Shown in pieces: positions 1,588 through 18,598 of a stretch of 19,010 bases of DNA. The position numbers and the translations under genes were made by a program. The notes below the pieces were generated by a model. That model had not been told where the DNA came from. It searched no databases and was given only the letters and a program-made list of their open reading frames with translations. Source of the stretch: Deltaproteobacteria bacterium (GTDB taxonomy: Bacteria > Myxococcota_A > JAADFL01); NCBI GenBank assembly GCA_013152945.1, contig JAADFL010000001.1, positions 1-19,010 on the forward strand, written 5' to 3'. How positions within the stretch are numbered: the stretch's first letter is position 1; each line of letters begins with the position of its first letter.

Positions 1588-2676
1588 TCAGCTACTTGAA
1601 AAATCCGTTTTCATAGCCATGTATAATGATGCGGCCAAAAGTAACACAACAGGTATCCAAGCACCTGCAAGCGGCCCAACAGCACCGGTCACAGCCAATT
1701 TACTGGAAAAAGCCAACATCATCCAAGCAAGGAAAGCCGCAGCAACTCCCCGGGCCACGGCATTCACCAGCCCACCTTGTCTGCCGCTGCCGGAAGAAGC
1801 CCAGAATCCCAATAAAACACCGACAATCATCATCAAGGGAAAGGAAAACCTTGATTCGATCTCCATCACGTATTCTCTTGCGGTCCGGCCCTGCTTTTTA
1901 GCATCCTCGATGTATTTTTCAAGCTCTGCAAGGTGCAGTTGGTACGGCCTTCCCCTGATTGTCTCCAGGTCCCCGGGGCCAACCCCTAAATCAAGGACAA
2001 TGGACTTCTCGAACTTGCGTTTTATCTCCTGTCCTGGCCCAAAATCAATCATCTCAACATTCCTGCCCGCCCATTTACTATTTTCAAATACCAACCTGTC
2101 AGCCCTTATCCTCCTTTTCAACCTGAAATCCTTGCCGTACTCGAACACTACAGGCTTGAGCAAACGCTTGCCCGAGGACGAGGATTGCTCGACGTGGGCA
2201 AACAAGAAAGGACCCTTGAGCCATCTCCTTCCTCCATAGTACTTGGTCCAACTCCAGGTAAAGGCTTTGAATACTTCCACCCTCAACCTGTCGGCTTCTT
2301 TGTCGGCAGGAGGAACCAAGGCTTCAGACAAAACCACGTCAATCATGGCTGCGGCCACGCCGCACAAGAGAACAGGAGCCATGAGTCGAAACTTTCCCGC
2401 GCCCAAGCTCATTGCTGCAATCAATTCACCCGACTTGGCCATGGTTCCAAGCCCCAGTATCACCCCAAACATCACGGCCATGGGCAATATAACGTGCACC
2501 TGCTTCGGCATCTGCAAAACATAGAACATGATTGCCTGGTAAAAGTCACCCCTGCCCTTCATGACTATGCCCGCAGTATCAAAGAAATTGATGATTGCCA
2601 CAAGAATGGCCAACACGATCACTGAAGCTGCTATTGCGCCTGCAACCCTACCCAGAATATACCTGAATAATGTCAT
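1588..2676 (-). CDS. lptG: LPS export ABC transporter permease LptG (YjgQ-type)
   Basis: This 362-residue inner-membrane protein has the LptF/LptG (YjgP/YjgQ) layout. Three hydrophobic segments lie near residues 12-32, 47-75 and 97-117, then about 160 hydrophilic residues form the periplasmic jellyroll. Three more membrane segments lie near 279-296, 303-325 and 333-354. Such permeases pair with a partner and dimeric LptB to extract LPS and pass it to LptC/LptA; no lptB or lptC is in this window. The ATG overlaps the lptF stop as ATGA (2673-2676), which indicates translational coupling. The frame stays open upstream to 2913, but that part lies inside lptF and is not homologous. LptF/LptG identities are assigned by gene order as in E. 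coli. Confidence 0.9.
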   Translation of the reverse strand: MTLFRYILGRVAGAIAASVIVLAILVAIINFFDTAGIVMKGRGDFYQAIMFYVLQMPKQVHVILPMAVMFGVILGLGTMAKSGELIAAMSLGAGKFRLMAPVLLCGVAAAMIDVVLSEALVPPADKEADRLRVEVFKAFTWSWTKYYGGRRWLKGPFLFAHVEQSSSSGKRLLKPVVFEYGKDFRLKRRIRADRLVFENSKWAGRNVEMIDFGPGQEIKRKFEKSIVLDLGVGPGDLETIRGRPYQLHLAELEKYIEDAKKQGRTAREYVMEIESRFSFPLMMIVGVLLGFWASSGSGRQGGLVNAVARGVAAAFLAWMMLAFSSKLAVTGAVGPLAGAWIPVVLLLAASLYMAMKTDFSSS

Positions 2677-3779
2677 GGCCGCACCAGGCCGCGAATCCAT
2701 CCGATGAGCACGGCAAAAGCCAGGAGCACCAGGTTCGGCATCCAGGCTGCAATCCATGCGGGTACAAGGCCACGGGCAACAACATGATCCGAAAACCTGA
2801 AAAAGACGTAATACAACGCCACGATGAGCGCAGCGACTATCGCAGGCCCGGCTCTCGCCCTTGTACGCACCCTCGGGCCGACAACAATACCAAGCAATAC
2901 AAATATCAAGCATGCGCCCGGAAGGGCCAATTTCCTGTGAGCCGCAAGAAGGAGTTTTTGCCGATCCTGTACAGCGAGTTTCCCGGAACCACCCAGAACA
3001 TCCAGCAGTTCACCCAAGGTCATGGTCCCGGCATCCTGGATGAACCTGGTCCTTCTCTCAACTTCCCGGCCCACGTCGAACCTGAAAGTGCACTCTTTGA
3101 AAGAGGCTATTGAATCCTCTTTTTCCTTTTCTTCAATCGAGTACAACTCGCCGTTCTTCAATCCGAGTTCAAGCGAAAGACTGCCGGGAAGCGCGCTGAT
3201 CACGCCCTGATCGGCCAATACAAGCAATTCGCGGCCCTTGTTGTGTCTCCTGTCGATTGCAAAAATCTTATGAAGCATATTGCCGGCCCTGCTGGCGGCA
3301 TATACCGTCAGCCCGTCCGCCATCTTTGCAAAACCGCCGGGTCTCAGTGTGCCGGCAAGGTTTTCCTTTGCAAGGGTAAGGGCTTCATCCTTCAGTATGT
3401 CCATTGATACCGGCCCGAGCTCTGCTGCGAATATGAAGGCCAAAACAAAGCCCAGTGTGCCCAGAAGGGTCATGGGCAACAACAAAGCTTTCCTGGACCT
3501 GCCCAGGAGGCTCATGGCCATGAGTTCATTATCCCTGGACATGCGGGCCAGTGCAGCCATAACGCCGAAGAGTAAGCTGATTGGGACAGCCAGGACCAGG
3601 AAAGACGGCATCAGCAGGCCCACAAGTTCTATTACCCGGGACAAATCCAGGGCACTGCCCATGACCAACCCGGACAGCCTCAACGCCTGGGTAATCAGCA
3701 TGAGAAATAAAAGTACGACCAGTGCCAATAAGGAAGGTCTTGCGACCTCTCCCATTATGTATCGGTCCAGGAGGCGCAT
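2673..3779 (-). CDS. lptF: LPS export ABC transporter permease LptF (YjgP-type)
   Basis: This 368-residue permease has three N-terminal membrane segments (about 15-34, 50-78 and 98-118), a periplasmic domain of about 160 residues, and three C-terminal membrane segments. The N-terminal R-L-L-D-R-Y-I-x-x-E and the FGVMAALARMSRDNELMAM stretch (71-89) with its coupling-helix character are typical of the family. The ATG at 3779 has only a weak upstream purine tract. The gene lies 61 bp downstream of purE on the same strand and overlaps lptG by 4 bp. Together they should form the membrane part of LptB2FG. Its presence is a strong sign of an LPS-bearing outer membrane. Confidence 0.9.
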   Translation of the reverse strand: MRLLDRYIMGEVARPSLLALVVLLFLMLITQALRLSGLVMGSALDLSRVIELVGLLMPSFLVLAVPISLLFGVMAALARMSRDNELMAMSLLGRSRKALLLPMTLLGTLGFVLAFIFAAELGPVSMDILKDEALTLAKENLAGTLRPGGFAKMADGLTVYAASRAGNMLHKIFAIDRRHNKGRELLVLADQGVISALPGSLSLELGLKNGELYSIEEKEKEDSIASFKECTFRFDVGREVERRTRFIQDAGTMTLGELLDVLGGSGKLAVQDRQKLLLAAHRKLALPGACLIFVLLGIVVGPRVRTRARAGPAIVAALIVALYYVFFRFSDHVVARGLVPAWIAAWMPNLVLLAFAVLIGWIRGLVRP

Positions 3780-9566: not shown

Positions 9567-9612
9567 CCCGGCACTATCAAATCCATGTACCTGCCATAGC
9601 CCAAGTGCCGGG
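9567..9612. terminator. Inverted repeat at a convergent gene junction
   Basis: CCCGGCACT (9567-9575) and AGTGCCGGG (9604-9612) are perfect 9-bp arms around a 28-nt loop. They sit where the plus-strand DsbA-like gene and the minus-strand FakAB-like gene converge, with only 20 bp between the stop codons. The right arm lies within the last codons of the FakAB-like gene. The stem is strong and symmetric, so it could act as a bidirectional terminator, but neither side has a T-run. Confidence 0.4.
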
Positions 9613-11499
9613 TCCCATGTGAACGCCTGCAGTGGCGGACATGGGCCAAACGAGCAATTCAAAATCCTTACCGAGACATTCAACCCTCTTGGCCGCAATG
9701 TCTAGAACGAATCGCCTGCTTTCAGCATCAGTATACTCGAGAAGAACGATTTTTCGGCCGTAGGCACTGGAAAAATGCTGCATGAACCTGGCCAAGATGA
9801 AATCCAGAGCCGCCTGCCTGGACCTGACAACACCCGCCTTGCCCGCTCCATCTTTCTTGTGCTCGATAACAGGCTTTATACCTGCAGCGTTTCCGAGAAA
9901 AGCACCAATCTTGCTCATTCTGCCGCCCCGGGCAAGGTACTTGAGCGTGTCCAGCGAAATGTATTCCTTGCATCTTTGTACCTGTGTACGCGCAAAGGCC
10001 AACAATTTAGCCGGGTGGCGAACCTTTTCCGCCTCTCTTGCACACACGTAAGCCAGGAGCGCCAGTTGCCCGGATGCAGCAAGAGAGTCGATTATCCTGA
10101 ACTTGTCCCCGGGATCACCCCCTTGTTTTTCTTTCCATCTCGATGCGGCATCGTATGTGCCTGTGTACTGTGAGCCCGCAGTCAAGTACAGAACGGCTTC
10201 CTCTGTACCGGCCAAGTTTTCAAGACCCGCCCATATTTCTTCCTCTGATGCCCTTGCCGTTGTAACCGGCTCACTGCTCTTCTTCAGCAACTCGTACAGT
10301 CCATTCTTGTCGACATCACACTCGGGTTTCATATCGCCCTTGATATAAATATAACTATAGAACAACTTGATGCCGAATTCACCGGCTACTTGCCTGTCCA
10401 TGCTGGCAGCGGCATCGACTGCCACGCTTACACGTCCGACCCACGAGTCATGCCAGGGCGATGGCACATCATGCCCGTATTCAATAGGCTGGGCACGAGG
10501 CCCAGTACGGGGATCAACACGCCTTTTCGATATGAAACTCCTGACCTGCTCGTTCATATCATCGAGGTGCCATGCCAGTTCCGGTCCCAAAGTTTTACAA
10601 TATTCCCTTAGTTTTTCAGGTTTATTCGTGTGCATGTGAACCTTGAGCACACCGCTATTCTGCAGAATTTCAACAGATTCCCCAAAGTTATCCAAACCGG
10701 AAAGAATTTCCGCCTGATCCCTCTTTTCCGTCTTTAGGGCAAAATCAGCACAATACCTCGGCCCTTGTACCCATGTTTCCTGTCTCCATCCAGGCCGTAT
10801 CTTCATGCCCTTGAAGCGATTTTCTTCAGGTGGATTCAAACCATGCAGTCTATATAAAACGCCTTCCAAGAAAAAGAACAAGCCCAGCGCCCCGGCATCC
10901 ACTACGCCTGCCGAAGATAACACGGGCAGACCGATCATTGTTTCCAGAACCGTTGTCTCGAGAATTTCCCTCGCAGCTTCTACCTGAGATGGCTCGAATT
11001 CCACCTTTGAAAATTCAGACCTTTCGACAAGCACGTCCATGACGCTCAAGATCGTCCCTTCAACCGGAGAACCCACACTGGAGTAAGCCTCTTGCCTGCC
11101 GAGATATGCAGCTTGTTGAAACCCGGGCCAACCTTTCTCGAGGTTGCTTAATATCCGGTCCAGGAAACTGCACAACAAGTTTCCCGAATTGCCACGGGCG
11201 GCCAGCAGCAGCCTCTGCCTGATCGTGCCCATGGAATCGCCGGCAGCGGCAAGATCCAACAACGGCGCTACAGTACACGACATGTTGATGCCTGTATCCC
11301 CGTCAGCCACCGGAAACACGTTTATCGCATCGAGGAGACCGCTATATTGCGATAATCTCTTTGCACCGCTTTCCAGTGCATCGAGCCACTGTAACGTGCG
11401 GTCTGAAACCATGCTGTTTTTTATGTCTTGAGAGCCTGGTGTTCCTGGTCCGTACCTCCGGCCCTGGTCATTGCTACCCGACTCATCGGTTCTGTTCAA
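9577..11499 (-). CDS. FakA-FakB-like fusion: DhaL kinase domain + DegV fatty-acid-binding domain
   Basis: The N-terminal part (about 33-220) is a DhaL/DAK phosphotransfer domain with DGDTGINM (66-73) for Mg-ATP, GNSG (103-106) and SAGVVDAGALG (196-206). A middle region has VHMHTNKPEK (287-296), the FakA middle-domain signature. From about 355 to 640 it is a DegV/FakB domain: LYLTAGSQYTGTY (437-449), LDTLKYLARGGRMSKIGAFL (516-535) and a GVHMGPG end (625-631). In Firmicutes, FakA phosphorylates fatty acids held by separate FakB proteins; here both functions would sit in one chain. The start is uncertain: TTG 11499 overlaps the upstream gene by 17 bp with GAGGAG ten bases ahead, while ATG 11412 still covers all domains. 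Translation coupling with the CoA-transferase gene is likely. Confidence 0.85.
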   Translation of the reverse strand: MNRTDESGSNDQGRRYGPGTPGSQDIKNSMVSDRTLQWLDALESGAKRLSQYSGLLDAINVFPVADGDTGINMSCTVAPLLDLAAAGDSMGTIRQRLLLAARGNSGNLLCSFLDRILSNLEKGWPGFQQAAYLGRQEAYSSVGSPVEGTILSVMDVLVERSEFSKVEFEPSQVEAAREILETTVLETMIGLPVLSSAGVVDAGALGLFFFLEGVLYRLHGLNPPEENRFKGMKIRPGWRQETWVQGPRYCADFALKTEKRDQAEILSGLDNFGESVEILQNSGVLKVHMHTNKPEKLREYCKTLGPELAWHLDDMNEQVRSFISKRRVDPRTGPRAQPIEYGHDVPSPWHDSWVGRVSVAVDAAASMDRQVAGEFGIKLFYSYIYIKGDMKPECDVDKNGLYELLKKSSEPVTTARASEEEIWAGLENLAGTEEAVLYLTAGSQYTGTYDAASRWKEKQGGDPGDKFRIIDSLAASGQLALLAYVCAREAEKVRHPAKLLAFARTQVQRCKEYISLDTLKYLARGGRMSKIGAFLGNAAGIKPVIEHKKDGAGKAGVVRSRQAALDFILARFMQHFSSAYGRKIVLLEYTDAESRRFVLDIAAKRVECLGKDFELLVWPMSATAGVHMGPGTWAMAGTWI

Positions 11500-13408
11500 T
11501 TCCCTCGTTCTCCTCTTTTCTTACAACAGCTCCTTGTCCAGGGCTCTTGAGTTCGATCTGGACCCTGTTAACACCGTCTTCCAGACGGCTCTTAACAATC
11601 AACCCGGATTCATGCAATATCCTGAAAACCGGCTTGTTGTAGGCGAGCACGTCTGCAGAAAAAATTTTGACTCCCCTTTTTATCGCCGCATCTGCAAGGG
11701 TTCTTGCCAGATCCTTGCCCAGGCCCTTTCCCTGGAAGTCGTCACGAACCACGAACGCAACATCTGCTGACATCCCGGCAGGATCCCTTACATAGTTTGC
11801 CACCCCGATAAGTTCCTCCCCACCCGGTTCGCCGATAAAACCTCCGATTGCAAAATGCCGGTCATAGTCAAGCTCTCTCAAGGGCTCCCTGCGTTCCCTG
11901 GAAAGTTTCACCATGGATGTGAAAAACCTCCTCGAAAGGCTCTCATCCTCGAGAGAATAGAAAAAATCCTTCAGGGCATCCTCGTCCGATGTTTTGAGCG
12001 GCCTGACAAACACATGGGACCGGTCCTTTAAAATCAGATTGTGCTCCACTTCTTTCGGATAAGGCTTGTTCAACGGAGGAACAAAGAACATGTTCGATTC
12101 TACATAATGGTTCTCCCTTGCATAAGACAACAGCTCATCTCTGAACCTTGGGTGGGCGACCTGTATCAGGCTCAGTGCCCTGTCCCGTATGGACTTGCCG
12201 AACAAGTAGGCCATGCCCTGTTCCGTGACCACGAAGTGAACATCGCTCCTTGGTGTCACCACCCCGGCTCCTTCCCTGAGGAAAGGCGCTATCCTGCTCC
12301 TCTTGCCGTCACTCGTAGTGCTCGGCAGGCATATGATCGGCCTGCCTCTCTCTGATCTGCCGGCTCCTCGAATAAAATCGAGCTGTCCACCGACCCCGCT
12401 GTACAGCCTGGTTCCTATGCTGTCCGCCGCCACCTGTCCTGTAATATCCACCTCGAGGGCCACATTCACCGCCGCCATGCGGGGATTCTGTGAAATAATG
12501 AAAGGATCGTTCACATGTTCAGTAGGCATGAAAAATACGGACGAGTTGTCATTTATGAAATCATACAGTTTTTTCGTTCCCATGCAGAAACTTGTCACTG
12601 ATTTGCCCTTGTGAATCGTCTTCCTCTTATTCGTAATGACCCCCGACTCCGCCAAATCGACCATTGCATCGCCCATGACTTCGGTATGAACGCCGAGATC
12701 CCGTCTGTCTTCGAGAAACTTGAGAACAGTCATGGGAATCACGCCTATTCCCGTCTCCAATGTACATCCGTCGTCAATCAGCTCGGCAACGTTCCTTGCA
12801 ACCATGACCTGGACCTCGTCAGGCTCGGGGTACTCGTATTCCAGTATGGGCTGCTCGCCCCGGACCAGAAAATCCAGTTCATCTATGTGTATGGTGCTGT
12901 CACCAAGGGTTCGCGGCATTGTTTCATTCACCTCTGCTATTACCAGGCCGGATGTCTCGATTGCGGTTTTCACGATATCCACGCTAACCCCGAGCGAGAC
13001 AAAGCCATGCCTGTCAGGTGGAGAGACACATACCAAGGCAGCGTCCAGCCGCGCCCTGCCGTTTCGCATAAAGCCGGGAATATCCGACAGGGACATGGGC
13101 GTGTAATCCGCCCTGCCCTCCTGGACTGCATCCCTCATGGGAGGTCCAATAAAAAATGAATTGTGACGTATGCCGTCCGAGAGTTCCAGTTTCCCGTACG
13201 GCGCGACTCCCAACGACAACAAATGAAATATTTCCGAATCATCGACTTTCGATACCTTGTTAGAAATTGCCTTGGACAAGGCCTGGGGCTCACCGCAAGC
13301 AGTACCCAGAAATATGCGCATTCCGGGCTTGAGGCGTTCTATTGCATCACCAGGCGTTAATAGCTTCCGGCCGTATTTTTTTTCCCACCCCAAGGTCCAC
13401 CTCCACAT
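11483..13408 (-). CDS. Acetyl-CoA hydrolase/transferase fused to a GNAT acetyltransferase domain
   Basis: Residues 1-440 (from ATG 13408, 641 in total) form an acyl-CoA hydrolase/CoA-transferase of the 4-hydroxybutyrate CoA-transferase type. LETGIGVIPMTVL (217-229) precedes LGVHTEV, whose Glu243 is the expected catalytic residue that forms the glutamyl-CoA thioester. VVTEQGMAYLFGKS (393-406) is also typical. Residues about 466-620 form a GNAT domain with the acetyl-CoA loop D-F-Q-G-K-G-L-G-K (557-565). Such fusions occur in deltaproteobacteria-like genomes. The substrate is not predictable from sequence. The frame also allows GTG 13435, but the family alignment favours ATG 13408; neither has a strong ribosome binding site. 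Its 3' end overlaps the FakAB-like gene, suggesting a two-gene acyl-metabolism operon. Confidence 0.88.
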   Translation of the reverse strand: MWRWTLGWEKKYGRKLLTPGDAIERLKPGMRIFLGTACGEPQALSKAISNKVSKVDDSEIFHLLSLGVAPYGKLELSDGIRHNSFFIGPPMRDAVQEGRADYTPMSLSDIPGFMRNGRARLDAALVCVSPPDRHGFVSLGVSVDIVKTAIETSGLVIAEVNETMPRTLGDSTIHIDELDFLVRGEQPILEYEYPEPDEVQVMVARNVAELIDDGCTLETGIGVIPMTVLKFLEDRRDLGVHTEVMGDAMVDLAESGVITNKRKTIHKGKSVTSFCMGTKKLYDFINDNSSVFFMPTEHVNDPFIISQNPRMAAVNVALEVDITGQVAADSIGTRLYSGVGGQLDFIRGAGRSERGRPIICLPSTTSDGKRSRIAPFLREGAGVVTPRSDVHFVVTEQGMAYLFGKSIRDRALSLIQVAHPRFRDELLSYARENHYVESNMFFVPPLNKPYPKEVEHNLILKDRSHVFVRPLKTSDEDALKDFFYSLEDESLSRRFFTSMVKLSRERREPLRELDYDRHFAIGGFIGEPGGEELIGVANYVRDPAGMSADVAFVVRDDFQGKGLGKDLARTLADAAIKRGVKIFSADVLAYNKPVFRILHESGLIVKSRLEDGVNRVQIELKSPGQGAVVRKEENEGIEQNR

Positions 13409-13573
13409 ACCGACCAGGTAATGAAAAAAGCACACTGGTTATGACTCTAACAGAAAACAGAAACATTGGCCAAGCGCACAAAAAACAAAGCAATCCGGTT
13501 AGTTCAGGTCATGTCTCCCTGAGTGTCACCGGGGCTCATATTTTATTTTGATAGCAAGGCATTGGACCTTATC

Positions 13574-15064: not shown

Positions 15065-15733
15065 TTAACTCCGGCCTTTTACCTGCGGCGTACCCGGTTC
15101 GAGAACAGCCAAGATATAGAGACCCATAAAAAAAGACCTTTGGAGAGGCAAGAGCAACCTGGCGAGCCAGTACGGAGTCCTGTTCTGTGTAAAGGCCCCG
15201 AATCCCGTCATTTCGCGCACACCAAGACCGGCTCGAACAGCCATGTCCTCTATCAACCAGGGGAATGAAAAAAGTCCTCCGAGTTCCTCTTTTGCCACCA
15301 ATGAGAAAAACACCTGTGCCGGGTTCAACGCATTCGGTTCGATGAGCAGGACGTTCCTTCTCGATACCCGGCGTGCTTCTTTCAATATTATTACCGGCCT
15401 TTTCACGTGGTGCAGAATATTTGCAACCAGGACGAAATCGAAACTATCGTCCCGGAAAGGCAGCATTTCGCCCAGGGCCGCAACCCTGAGTGCCGCCGGG
15501 TTGCGTGCAAGCTGGTTCCTGAAGGCATCCAGCGCCACGAGGCGCCGCGACCTCTTCAATAGTTGGAAGCTGAACACGCCCGGTCCTGCTCCTATTTCCA
15601 GCAGGGAGGAGCCATCTACTTTGATCCGTTCCAAAAACCAGGATAACATGGTCCGGCCATATAGCCTTGCGGCCCTGTGATCACCCGGTCTGTACTCGAT
15701 TTTCGAGAAATATTCTTTTTCCTGTTCGTTCAA
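15065..15733 (-). CDS. SAM-dependent class I methyltransferase (Methyltransf_11 type)
   Basis: The 222 residues contain motif I LLEIGAGPG (44-52), the acidic residue at the end of strand 2 (D69), and the post-motif FRDDSFDFVLVANILHHV (93-110) typical of small-molecule or lipid methyltransferases. The C-terminal third is rather hydrophobic and aromatic (about 175-212), which could bind a lipid or hydrophobic substrate or touch the membrane (inference). The start is TTG at 15733, with AGGAG six bases upstream. It lies 25 bp after top6A and 6 bp before the lipoprotein gene, so it is probably co-transcribed with both. The substrate is unknown. Confidence 0.85.
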   Translation of the reverse strand: MNEQEKEYFSKIEYRPGDHRAARLYGRTMLSWFLERIKVDGSSLLEIGAGPGVFSFQLLKRSRRLVALDAFRNQLARNPAALRVAALGEMLPFRDDSFDFVLVANILHHVKRPVIILKEARRVSRRNVLLIEPNALNPAQVFFSLVAKEELGGLFSFPWLIEDMAVRAGLGVREMTGFGAFTQNRTPYWLARLLLPLQRSFFMGLYILAVLEPGTPQVKGRS

Positions 15734-15758: not shown

Positions 15759-16922
15759 TCACGGCAGGAATGAACCCGGCTTGGATAACTTATCGGGAAG
15801 ATATTTTTCGATCACGTAGTTCAGCCCCCACTTGGCCAGGGCCTGTTGCTCGGCCCTTACTCCCATGCTGAGCATGAGTTCAATAGCCTTGCGCCACTTC
15901 TTGTGATGGATGAAAAACGGGTCGTTCTTCAGGGCGTCCCTGGCCCGCTTGATGTCCACCTCTTTGAGCGGATGGGTGGGCAAGTCATAATCATTGATAT
16001 CCATTGGAGTGACGCCCAGGAACCTTGCCTTGGGAACACAAAAAAAACGGTTGATATGGGCCGCATTGCCTGAGCCTACCTTCAATGTCCTATAAATATT
16101 GGACATGCCGTACGGATCGCAATCAACAAATGCATAAACCGGTATGTCGGCTTGTTCCGCGAGTTTTCTAACAAACCGCCTGGTAGCCCTTGTAGGAACT
16201 CCTGCCATGGAAATGAGGATACAATTCCAGGTTTTCCAAAACTTGTGCGACTGGAGCCTTTGGAACATGCCACCGGTCTCGATACACAAAATGAAATCCG
16301 CCTTGGTTTCGAATGACAGGTGCTCGACCGTGGAAGGAATCGAATACGCCCCTGTGCCGAATTTCGTGCAATCAATCCTTACCACTTCTCCTGATTCCGG
16401 GTCGGGATCCAGCACGACCAGTTCGCCTGCCACGGCTCCGCCATGCTCGTCCGGCACGAACTTGAGCTGTTCCCTTGATACACCATCAATGGAAAACATG
16501 GCCTCGATATCGTCCATGACCGTGTCTGATTCGAACTGATCCATAAAAGCGGCATCTCCCCAGTTCTTCGATTGGTAGTATGCGTCCCTCTTTGTAGCAA
16601 AATCCCTAGTCTCGATCAGTTCCTTTGACAAGGCCATCATCTTGAAGGTCTGGGCAAAGGTCTTTGCGGTAGTCACGCTCAATGTCCTGACTTTTCTCGT
16701 CCTTCCTATTTCAAAGTAACCCCTCGACACGTCGTACCTGACGTTAGACAGAGACCTCACCGGCAGTTTCAGTTCAGGCTTGGAGCCTTTTTCAATCCGT
16801 TTGAACACCTTTCGGGCCTGGAGTGTGATAGCATTCGAAGCGACCTTGTCAAGGAACATGCTCCTCTTCCCGGGGTCATCCTTGGTTTTAGCGGTCCTAC
16901 CTTTTTTTTTCTTACCTGCCAT
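15759..16922 (-). CDS. top6A: DNA topoisomerase VI subunit A (Spo11-like)
   Basis: The A subunit cuts both DNA strands in the A2B2 type IIB topoisomerase. This 387-residue protein has the 5Y-CAP segment ATKRDAYYQSKNW (109-121), with the catalytic tyrosine at 115 or 116. Its Toprim domain carries the metal site Glu215 (ILCIETGG) and D267-x-D269 (FVDCDPYGMSNIYR), as in archaeal Topo VI A. A lysine-rich N-terminus (3-23) precedes the winged-helix region. The length is close to archaeal A subunits (about 360-390). ATG 16922 has GGAG six bases upstream. The gene follows top6B by 12 bp. All key residues are present, so the enzyme should be active. In bacteria this family is sporadic and usually ascribed to transfer from archaea. 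Confidence 0.95.
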   Translation of the reverse strand: MAGKKKKGRTAKTKDDPGKRSMFLDKVASNAITLQARKVFKRIEKGSKPELKLPVRSLSNVRYDVSRGYFEIGRTRKVRTLSVTTAKTFAQTFKMMALSKELIETRDFATKRDAYYQSKNWGDAAFMDQFESDTVMDDIEAMFSIDGVSREQLKFVPDEHGGAVAGELVVLDPDPESGEVVRIDCTKFGTGAYSIPSTVEHLSFETKADFILCIETGGMFQRLQSHKFWKTWNCILISMAGVPTRATRRFVRKLAEQADIPVYAFVDCDPYGMSNIYRTLKVGSGNAAHINRFFCVPKARFLGVTPMDINDYDLPTHPLKEVDIKRARDALKNDPFFIHHKKWRKAIELMLSMGVRAEQQALAKWGLNYVIEKYLPDKLSKPGSFLP

Positions 16923-16934
16923 TTGAAACTCCGC

Positions 16935-18497
16935 CTACATCTTCCTGCTTCTTTCCAGCATGTTCGTCAACTGCTCGACAACTTGGTCCCTCTTCTTCGG
17001 GGACAGGGAAAGTATCTCCTGCAATGCATCTCCTACGTACGGCAGGTACTTGGCTATGTAAGTTCTTTTCCTGTGTTCATCCGCCTCGCGCTTTCCCCGC
17101 CTGATGTGGGCGGACAGTTTTCTGCCGCATTCCTGCAAGGCGAGCCTCACGTCTTTGAGCAACTCCGGGTAGTGGGCGATAGCTTCTTTTGATTCGCTCG
17201 TAAACGGGACCCATACACTCGCAATGTGCACAAAGATCACAAGAGGCCCTGAAGGCAAGGCTCCACGCGCCTGCTGCAAACCGTACCCGCGCCATGATGT
17301 TGTCAGCACCGCCTTGGTAATACCGCAGCCCCCGGCCTGGTACAGCAGGGGTACACGGTTGGCATATCGTATCACCCTGGCCAGGCCGTCCGATTCCAGT
17401 GCCCCTCCATAAGCCAAGCCCACCTCTACCTGAAAGGGGTTACCCCTGTACACGGACGGAGGCCTTGTCCTTGCCACATACCAATCAGCAGGCACGAGTT
17501 TCTTCATGCCCGACAAGATGGCGTCTTCACCTATTGGAGAAAGGCAATTCGTGGGAGGGGCCATTATCTTGACCTTTGGTATGGCCCTGAACAGGCTTTC
17601 CACCTCCCTGGAGGCCACGTGCCTGGGCGAACGTTTCTCCGGTATACCTGCCTCTTTTAAAATACTGCGCCCAACATTATCGCTCACCCTGGAAAAATCG
17701 CTCTTCAAGGCTGCAAGCACGGTCCTGGACTTGGAATCCCTTAACATCCTGGCGAGTATTCCGAGTTCCACGCCGTATGGATGCGGTTTTATCTCTCTCG
17801 CCTCCACTGGAAGCTCCTCCGTGGATCTCTCGTATGTGACCTCGTCACCCTTGGGTGTTCTGTATTCGATCCTTGCATGCGGATTTGCCATTGCGGTCTG
17901 CACCATGTACTCGTCCACCGAGTGCTGTCCCTTGCGATAGACCGCCTCGAGTTCCATGGTCACCCTTGTACCGTGCTTCTTGTCCCATTCTATTTCCTTG
18001 TCCTTGAGCACGCTTGGCGCATTTCGTTTTGTATCAATGGCGACCTCTAGTTGGTGTGGTTCCCTGGACGCCCCTGTCCTCGTGATTATAAGCACGGGTT
18101 TGCCGGTCGTGAGCTGTGCGTACATACCGGCCGCCGAGATCCCGATGCCCTGTTGTCCCCTGCTTTGCTTAAGCCTATGGAACTTTGAGCCGTAGAGCAG
18201 TTTGCCGAATATCTTCGGGACCTGCTTCCTTATGATTCCGGGACCATTATCTTCGACGGTCACCATGTACCTGTCTTCCGCCAGTGCATCGAGTTCAACC
18301 TTGATTTCAGGAAGAATGCCAGCCTCTTCACAAGCATCCAGGCTGTTGTCTACTGCTTCTTTTACAGCAGTAAGGAGGGCTTTTGAAGGGCTGTCAAAAC
18401 CCAACAGGTGGCGATTCTTGGTGAAAAACTCACTAATGGATATCTCACGTTGCCTGTTGGCTAGGTCTGCTGCACTTGCTCTTCTTTTTACCGCCAT
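16935..18497 (-). CDS. top6B: DNA topoisomerase VI subunit B (GHKL ATPase)
   Basis: Subunit B binds ATP, dimerises as a gate, and drives strand passage through the break made by subunit A. The 520 residues show the GHKL Bergerat fold: N-box E47-x-x-D50-N51 ([12 protein letters not shown]), G1 VEDNGPGI (81-88) and G2 [13 protein letters not shown] (112-124). The Topo VI-specific [12 protein letters not shown] (313-324) and [17 protein letters not shown] (381-397) follow. The WKxY motif of the transducer domain, which supplies the switch lysine to ATP in characterised enzymes, reads W402-R-G-Y405 here. The length matches the Sulfolobus type without the C-terminal Ig-like extension. GGGAG ten bases upstream supports ATG 18497. 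This is the first gene of the operon, behind a good promoter. Confidence 0.95.
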
Positions 18498-18569: not shown

Positions 18570-18598
18570 AACATAGGGATACTATGCATTTGTGTCAA
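18570..18598 (-). promoter_or_regulatory. Sigma70-type promoter of the top6B-top6A-methyltransferase-lipoprotein operon
   Basis: On the minus strand a perfect -35 TTGACA (18598-18593) and a -10 TATGTT (18575-18570, four of six consensus positions) are separated by exactly 17 bp. The expected start of transcription is near 18563, about 65 nt before the top6B ATG. The -35 box begins two bases from the end of the repeat tail at 18601. Confidence 0.65.

Follow-up and report, generated by a model that had tools for sequence, protein, structure and literature searches.

Topoisomerase VI genes in a Myxococcota genome

The window analyzed here, a stretch of 19,010 bases, is an entire contig (C1) of a Myxococcota MAG of 4.84 Mb (94% complete, 218 contigs). 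On its minus strand, at 15759–18497, it carries a DNA topoisomerase VI (Topo VI) gene pair, top6B followed by top6A, which lie 12 nt apart and have no internal stops (Table 1). An earlier note on this DNA had the coordinates, strand, and gene order exactly right, and the same B–A order is found in most relatives. In family-model searches, Top6B scored 693 bits against NF003218 (cut-off 274) and 565 bits against TIGR01052 (cut-off 381) and also matched the Pfam transducer model PF09239; Top6A matched the three Topo VI-A Pfam domains (PF21180, PF20768, and PF04406), each above cut-off. The window Top6A is 57% identical to that of Methanocaldococcus jannaschii (1d3y) over 300 aligned residues, and the window Top6B is 47% identical to that of Methanosarcina mazei (2q2e); another solved relative is 2zbk, from Saccharolobus shibatae. 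The H2TH domain, a hallmark of type IIB enzymes, lies between the GHKL and transducer domains and is covered by unbroken alignments of Top6B to residues 6–502 of 2q2e_B and 9–491 of 2zbk_B. The window enzyme shares its domains, active-site residues, and the parts of a B–A heterotetramer with these archaeal enzymes but differs from them in having a bacterial, gyrase-bearing host, and the C-terminal extension seen in M. mazei Top6B (621 aa) is missing from its B subunit (520 aa).

Alignments of 70–136 relatives showed that Y116, E215, D267, and D269 of Top6A are invariant, as are E47, N51, D83/G85/G87, G114/G117/G119, and K437 of Top6B. The YY and Toprim motifs of subunit A and the N, G1, and G2 boxes of subunit B, which the earlier note had read as intact, were all found; the invariant tyrosine is Y116, and Tyr115, just before it, is not invariant in a second class of Top6A (class II, described below). 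The earlier note's claim of a complete Topo VI agrees with the family models, the solved relatives, and every catalytic residue, and the two genes presumably encode a functional Topo VI of a Gram-negative bacterium.

The Top6A, Spo11, and MksG/Wadjet families have a Toprim and winged-helix fold in common, and this shared fold is what would favor reading the window Top6A as a Spo11- or MksG/Wadjet-like nuclease instead of a topoisomerase subunit. That reading has almost no likelihood, given that the gene directly upstream of top6A encodes Top6B at full length, its GHKL and transducer domains intact, and that Top6A bears all three Topo VI-A Pfam domains. Spo11/MTOPVIB, the eukaryotic meiotic A-type protein with a B-like partner whose GHKL domain is degenerate, was ruled out by the complete GHKL domain and the bacterial host.

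Table 1 Features of the Topo VI locus in window coordinates
Feature	Position	Strand	Remarks
top6B, DNA topoisomerase VI subunit B	16935–18497	−	520 aa; GHKL ATPase, H2TH region, transducer; without C-terminal Ig-like extension
N-box Asn51 codon, Top6B	18345–18347	−	Invariant, 70 sequences
G1 box DNGPG (residues 83–87), Top6B	18237–18251	−	Alignment
G2 box GQQGIG (residues 114–119), Top6B	18141–18158	−	Alignment
Transducer switch Lys437 codon, Top6B	17187–17189	−	Invariant, 70 sequences
top6A, DNA topoisomerase VI subunit A, class I	15759–16922	−	387 aa; winged-helix DNA-cleavage domain and Toprim
Catalytic Tyr116 codon, Top6A	16575–16577	−	Invariant in 73 class I bacterial, 37 DPANN, 23 class II, and 3 PDB sequences
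Toprim Glu215 codon, Top6A	16278–16280	−	Invariant
Toprim DxD (Asp267-Cys-Asp269), Top6A	16116–16124	−	Invariant
Sigma-70-like promoter candidate TTGACA-17-TATGTT	18570–18598	−	Upstream of top6B; 10/12 matches
Class I methyltransferase ORF	15065–15733	−	TTG start; 25 nt downstream of top6A

The operon had been described as having a good bacterial promoter and as lying beside lptF/lptG. One plausible site, matching at 10/12 positions, stands upstream of top6B, but the number of sigma-70-like sites in that region (2 observed vs. 2.9 expected) is not above chance. The lptF/lptG genes are genuine and the Gram-negative reading drawn from them holds, but they lie ~12 kb away (1588–3779) and do not adjoin top6. 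The methyltransferase ORF is perhaps co-transcribed with top6A. Among the fetched loci, no methyltransferase homologue adjoined Topo VI elsewhere and none of the window's adjacent genes was found again as a recurring neighbor, so no functional partner of Topo VI is inferred. Elsewhere on the minus strand, the window encodes a butyryl-CoA:acetate CoA-transferase-like protein fused to a C-terminal GNAT acetyltransferase domain (11483–13435) and a single fused protein with a FakA-like DAK2 kinase domain and a DegV/FakB-like fatty-acid-binding domain (9577–11499).

The contig is bacterial

A chimera joining archaeal and bacterial DNA was weighed because the ancestry of Top6A and Top6B is archaeal and their identity to DPANN homologues reaches 69%. 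The GC content of the top6 genes (0.505–0.538) matches that of the contig (0.514) and falls within that of 18 sampled stretches of the genome (0.47–0.58), their codon usage agrees with that of the contig and of the genome at large, and the remaining contig genes are bacterial in type (lptF/G, purD, fakA/degV). In the A tree, the window Top6A lies inside a bacterial clade of 69 rows with support 100, which DPANN archaea and M. jannaschii adjoin; the closest relatives of the window Topo VI are bacterial. A chimeric window, or a contig derived from archaeal contamination, is therefore highly implausible, and we rejected both on these grounds; no sign was found of the chimera that the earlier note had named as grounds for abandoning its reading. 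One locus labelled ‘Euryarchaeota archaeon’ (L059, JABDBI010000006.1) carries a bacterial-clade Topo VI and falls in a phylum-level group with bacterial genomes of 5–9 Mb; it is probably a mislabelled bacterial MAG.

The host has gyrase and no detectable Topo IV

The earlier note asked what Topo VI contributes beyond gyrase and Topo IV, and proposed looking for gyrA/gyrB and parC/parE in the same genome. One gyrA and one gyrB were found, near one another and near dnaN on contig C107. GyrA, with the GyrA box QRRGGRG, is the sole PF00521 match of the genome (TIGR01063, 1218 bits), and GyrB is the sole PF00204 match (TIGR01059, 1011 bits). Profile searches of this 94% complete genome found no second PF00521/PF00204 pair, and hence neither parC nor parE, so that the premise of three coexisting enzymes does not hold for the host. 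This absence rests on profile searches of one genome, from a lineage without a compared relative closer than phylum. On contig C107, dnaN and gyrB (L126:578–4225, G000:C107) have a GC content of 0.35–0.39, compared to ~0.50 elsewhere on the contig and in the genome, possibly reflecting recent transfer or an origin-proximal effect.

With 94% completeness and 218 contigs, an assembly gap might be suspected to have removed Topo IV from the MAG. This is very unlikely, since second subunits of both A and B type would need to have been missed and since ~54 further Topo VI-bearing genomes of the group likewise lack a second subunit, including the complete single-contig genomes G277, G289, and G311 (12–13.6 Mb).

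Topo VI rarely co-occurs with canonical ParC

We analyzed the distribution of Topo VI across the host's phylum-level group, which is Myxococcota in the NCBI sense, using 312 genomes from 62 families, each with a completeness of at least 90%; the compared genomes are no closer to the host than phylum level. Topo VI-A was present in 73 of the 312 genomes and 20 of the 62 families, and Topo VI occurred in 32 of 58 genomes of a second, separate phylum-level group, which has no listed GyrA position in common with the first. Describing the enzyme as only sporadic in bacteria, as had been done for this locus, therefore understates its occurrence.

A second PF00521 protein was taken as a would-be ParC and counted in genomes with at least one PF00521 match. 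Such a second type IIA A-subunit was present in 16 of 71 Topo VI-bearing genomes of the first group vs. 204 of 237 genomes without Topo VI (Fisher's exact test, P ~1.6 × 10−23), a contrast that was kept when stratified by family (CMH test, P ~5 × 10−12). It recurred within families that have members of both kinds, with second A-subunits in 1/13 Topo VI-bearing vs. 36/37 other genomes in family f6, 0/2 vs. 4/4 in f28, 0/1 vs. 3/3 in f43, and 0/2 vs. 1/1 in f49. The second group gave the same picture (0/31 vs. 17/25, P ~1 × 10−8).

Two kinds of second A-subunit were distinguished, with scores for genomes without Topo VI read in a sample of them: canonical ParC (~466–505 bits, ~810–930 aa) and a short form (~330–361 bits, ~640–750 aa) of NCBIfam NF007209/PRK09631, the family being tested in genome G010. 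Fifteen of the 16 exceptions have the short PRK09631 type and belong to families f10 and f26. The remaining one, G208, is the sole genome with both canonical ParC and Topo VI; its Topo VI (L125, G208:C175:5000–11257) is divergent and sits on an 11-kb contig, and misbinning or recent arrival is a possible explanation. Topo VI and canonical ParC are thus nearly mutually exclusive among these relatives.

In G010 (L124:951–4779), the short type IIA pair consists of a 605-aa GyrB-like protein and a ~670-aa PRK09631-type ParC; such pairs accompany Topo VI in f10 and f26 and are also present in genomes of f10, f28, and f43 that lack it. Standing beside gyrase and Topo VI, they give some Myxococcota three type II topoisomerases. 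Conversely, 33 genomes without Topo VI have only gyrase, mostly in families f4 and f9 (e.g., G003 and G009), and a PF09239 search found no hidden Topo VI-B in them. Gyrase alone can apparently suffice, and Topo VI is apparently not the sole way to live without Topo IV.

Topo VI in bacteria has already been published, and the window is a further example: Allen and Maxwell reported it from 17 families of bacteria, found that Topo IV is missing except in Pseudomonadota and Terrabacteria, and saw three type II enzymes in those two groups only (PMC11302465). The window host, with gyrase present and Topo IV absent, resembles the Myxococcota and Planctomycetota described there, and it adds a deeply branching lineage. 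Unlike in that study, the short PRK09631-type ParC co-occurs with Topo VI in two Myxococcota families, and our sample is far larger. The present analysis adds the size of the pattern and its replication within families, the finding that short ParC and Topo VI coexist in the two Myxococcota families, and the incongruence between A and B described next.

Two classes of Top6A are paired with one class of Top6B

A second class of Top6A (class II) was found in Myxococcota families f6, f23, f48, f49, f54, f56–f58, and f62, and is 34% identical to class I, to which the window enzyme belongs with a matching B. The A subunit of S. shibatae is nearer to class II (40%) than to class I (33%). All 30 assigned genomes with class II Topo VI have a single type IIA A-subunit. 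At loci L130–L132, L136, and L201–L221, class II Top6A adjoins a Top6B of the window's own class. Genome pairs within class I were 59% identical in B and 67% in A; between class I and class II genomes, identity was 54% in B and 34% in A.

The trees differ accordingly. A single bacterial clade was rejected in the A tree (ΔlnL 350, AU test, P = 3 × 10−79), whereas all bacteria formed one clade in the B tree, with support 90. An A-like split was rejected by the B data in AU tests both when the class I B subunits were constrained to group with M. mazei (P = 0.018) and when the class II B subunits were constrained to group together (P = 0.0098); a constraint on the class I B subunits alone was not rejected (P = 0.11), nor did the A data reject a grouping of MM with SS (P = 0.36). 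The DPANN genome G520, which has a class II A and a B that groups with L070/L072 (support 96), appears to show the same exchange of A, with a placement of its B among the bacterial class II B subunits not clearly rejected (P = 0.064). Another DPANN locus, L234 (G539:C3), has a Top6B match spanning 991 residues, above the normal length, perhaps owing to an intein or a fusion.

The simplest reading of these sequence comparisons is that A and B differ in history, the A gene having been exchanged beside a retained B; the main alternative is that the evolutionary rate shifted strongly in A but not in B. In the part of the literature covered, we found no earlier report of incongruence between Top6A and Top6B. 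On balance, we somewhat favor a history in which Topo VI repeatedly took the role of Topo IV in Myxococcota with either of two ancient A classes, the A subunit being exchanged and the B subunit kept.

A proposed role for Topo VI as decatenase

Gyrase without detectable Topo IV, in a pattern seen across hundreds of related genomes, suggests that Topo VI most likely untangles chromosomes, a task that falls to Topo IV in most bacteria. We consider it quite probable that Topo VI is a dedicated decatenase that stands in for the missing Topo IV, its activity, role, and the direction of replacement being read from gene sequences and their distribution. The two genes would encode an A2B2 type IIB topoisomerase in which ATP closes the Top6B dimers, capturing one DNA duplex; Top6A, whose E215, D267, and D269 hold Mg2+, would then use Tyr116 to cut both strands of a second duplex, and the first would be passed through the break. 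Gyrase, encoded on contig C107, would be the source of negative supercoiling, and Topo VI would separate the replicated chromosomes in place of Topo IV. Decatenation is the proposed role common to the two enzymes; Topo IV (ParC/ParE), absent from the host genome, is a type IIA enzyme whose DNA-cleaving subunit is not homologous to that of Topo VI. Topo VI of M. mazei acts preferentially as a decatenase (PMC8837201), and PMC11302465 states, from unpublished data, that this enzyme complements a temperature-sensitive parE mutant of E. coli.

Several points count against a decatenase role: the 33 gyrase-only genomes, the combination of Topo VI with a short ParC-like pair in f10 and f26, and the host's being a 94% complete MAG, the one genome of its lineage in which ParC/ParE were looked for. 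Topo VI might instead be functional but accessory, with bulk decatenation left to gyrase and Topo IV lost for unrelated reasons, since the gyrase-only genomes, concentrated in f4 and f9, indicate that the lineage tolerates loss of both enzymes. We regard this as rather unlikely: the exclusivity between Topo VI and canonical ParC is strong and replicated, and Topo VI is highly conserved (bacterial class I A subunits are 55–88% identical), both of which argue for a central role.

With a decatenase role for Topo VI, asking why a bacterium has an archaeal topoisomerase becomes a proposal that can be tested, namely that chromosome decatenation was handed to a type IIB enzyme, as its near-exclusive distribution relative to canonical Topo IV suggests, and families f6, f28, f43, and f49, each with members that have Topo VI and members that do not, offer natural comparisons. 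If repeated replacement with exchange of A is true, Topo VI subunits would be interchangeable over evolutionary time and Topo VI would be a recurrent bacterial substitute decatenase. The apparent exchange of A under one class of B also bears on how Top6A could part from Top6B, as Spo11 did.
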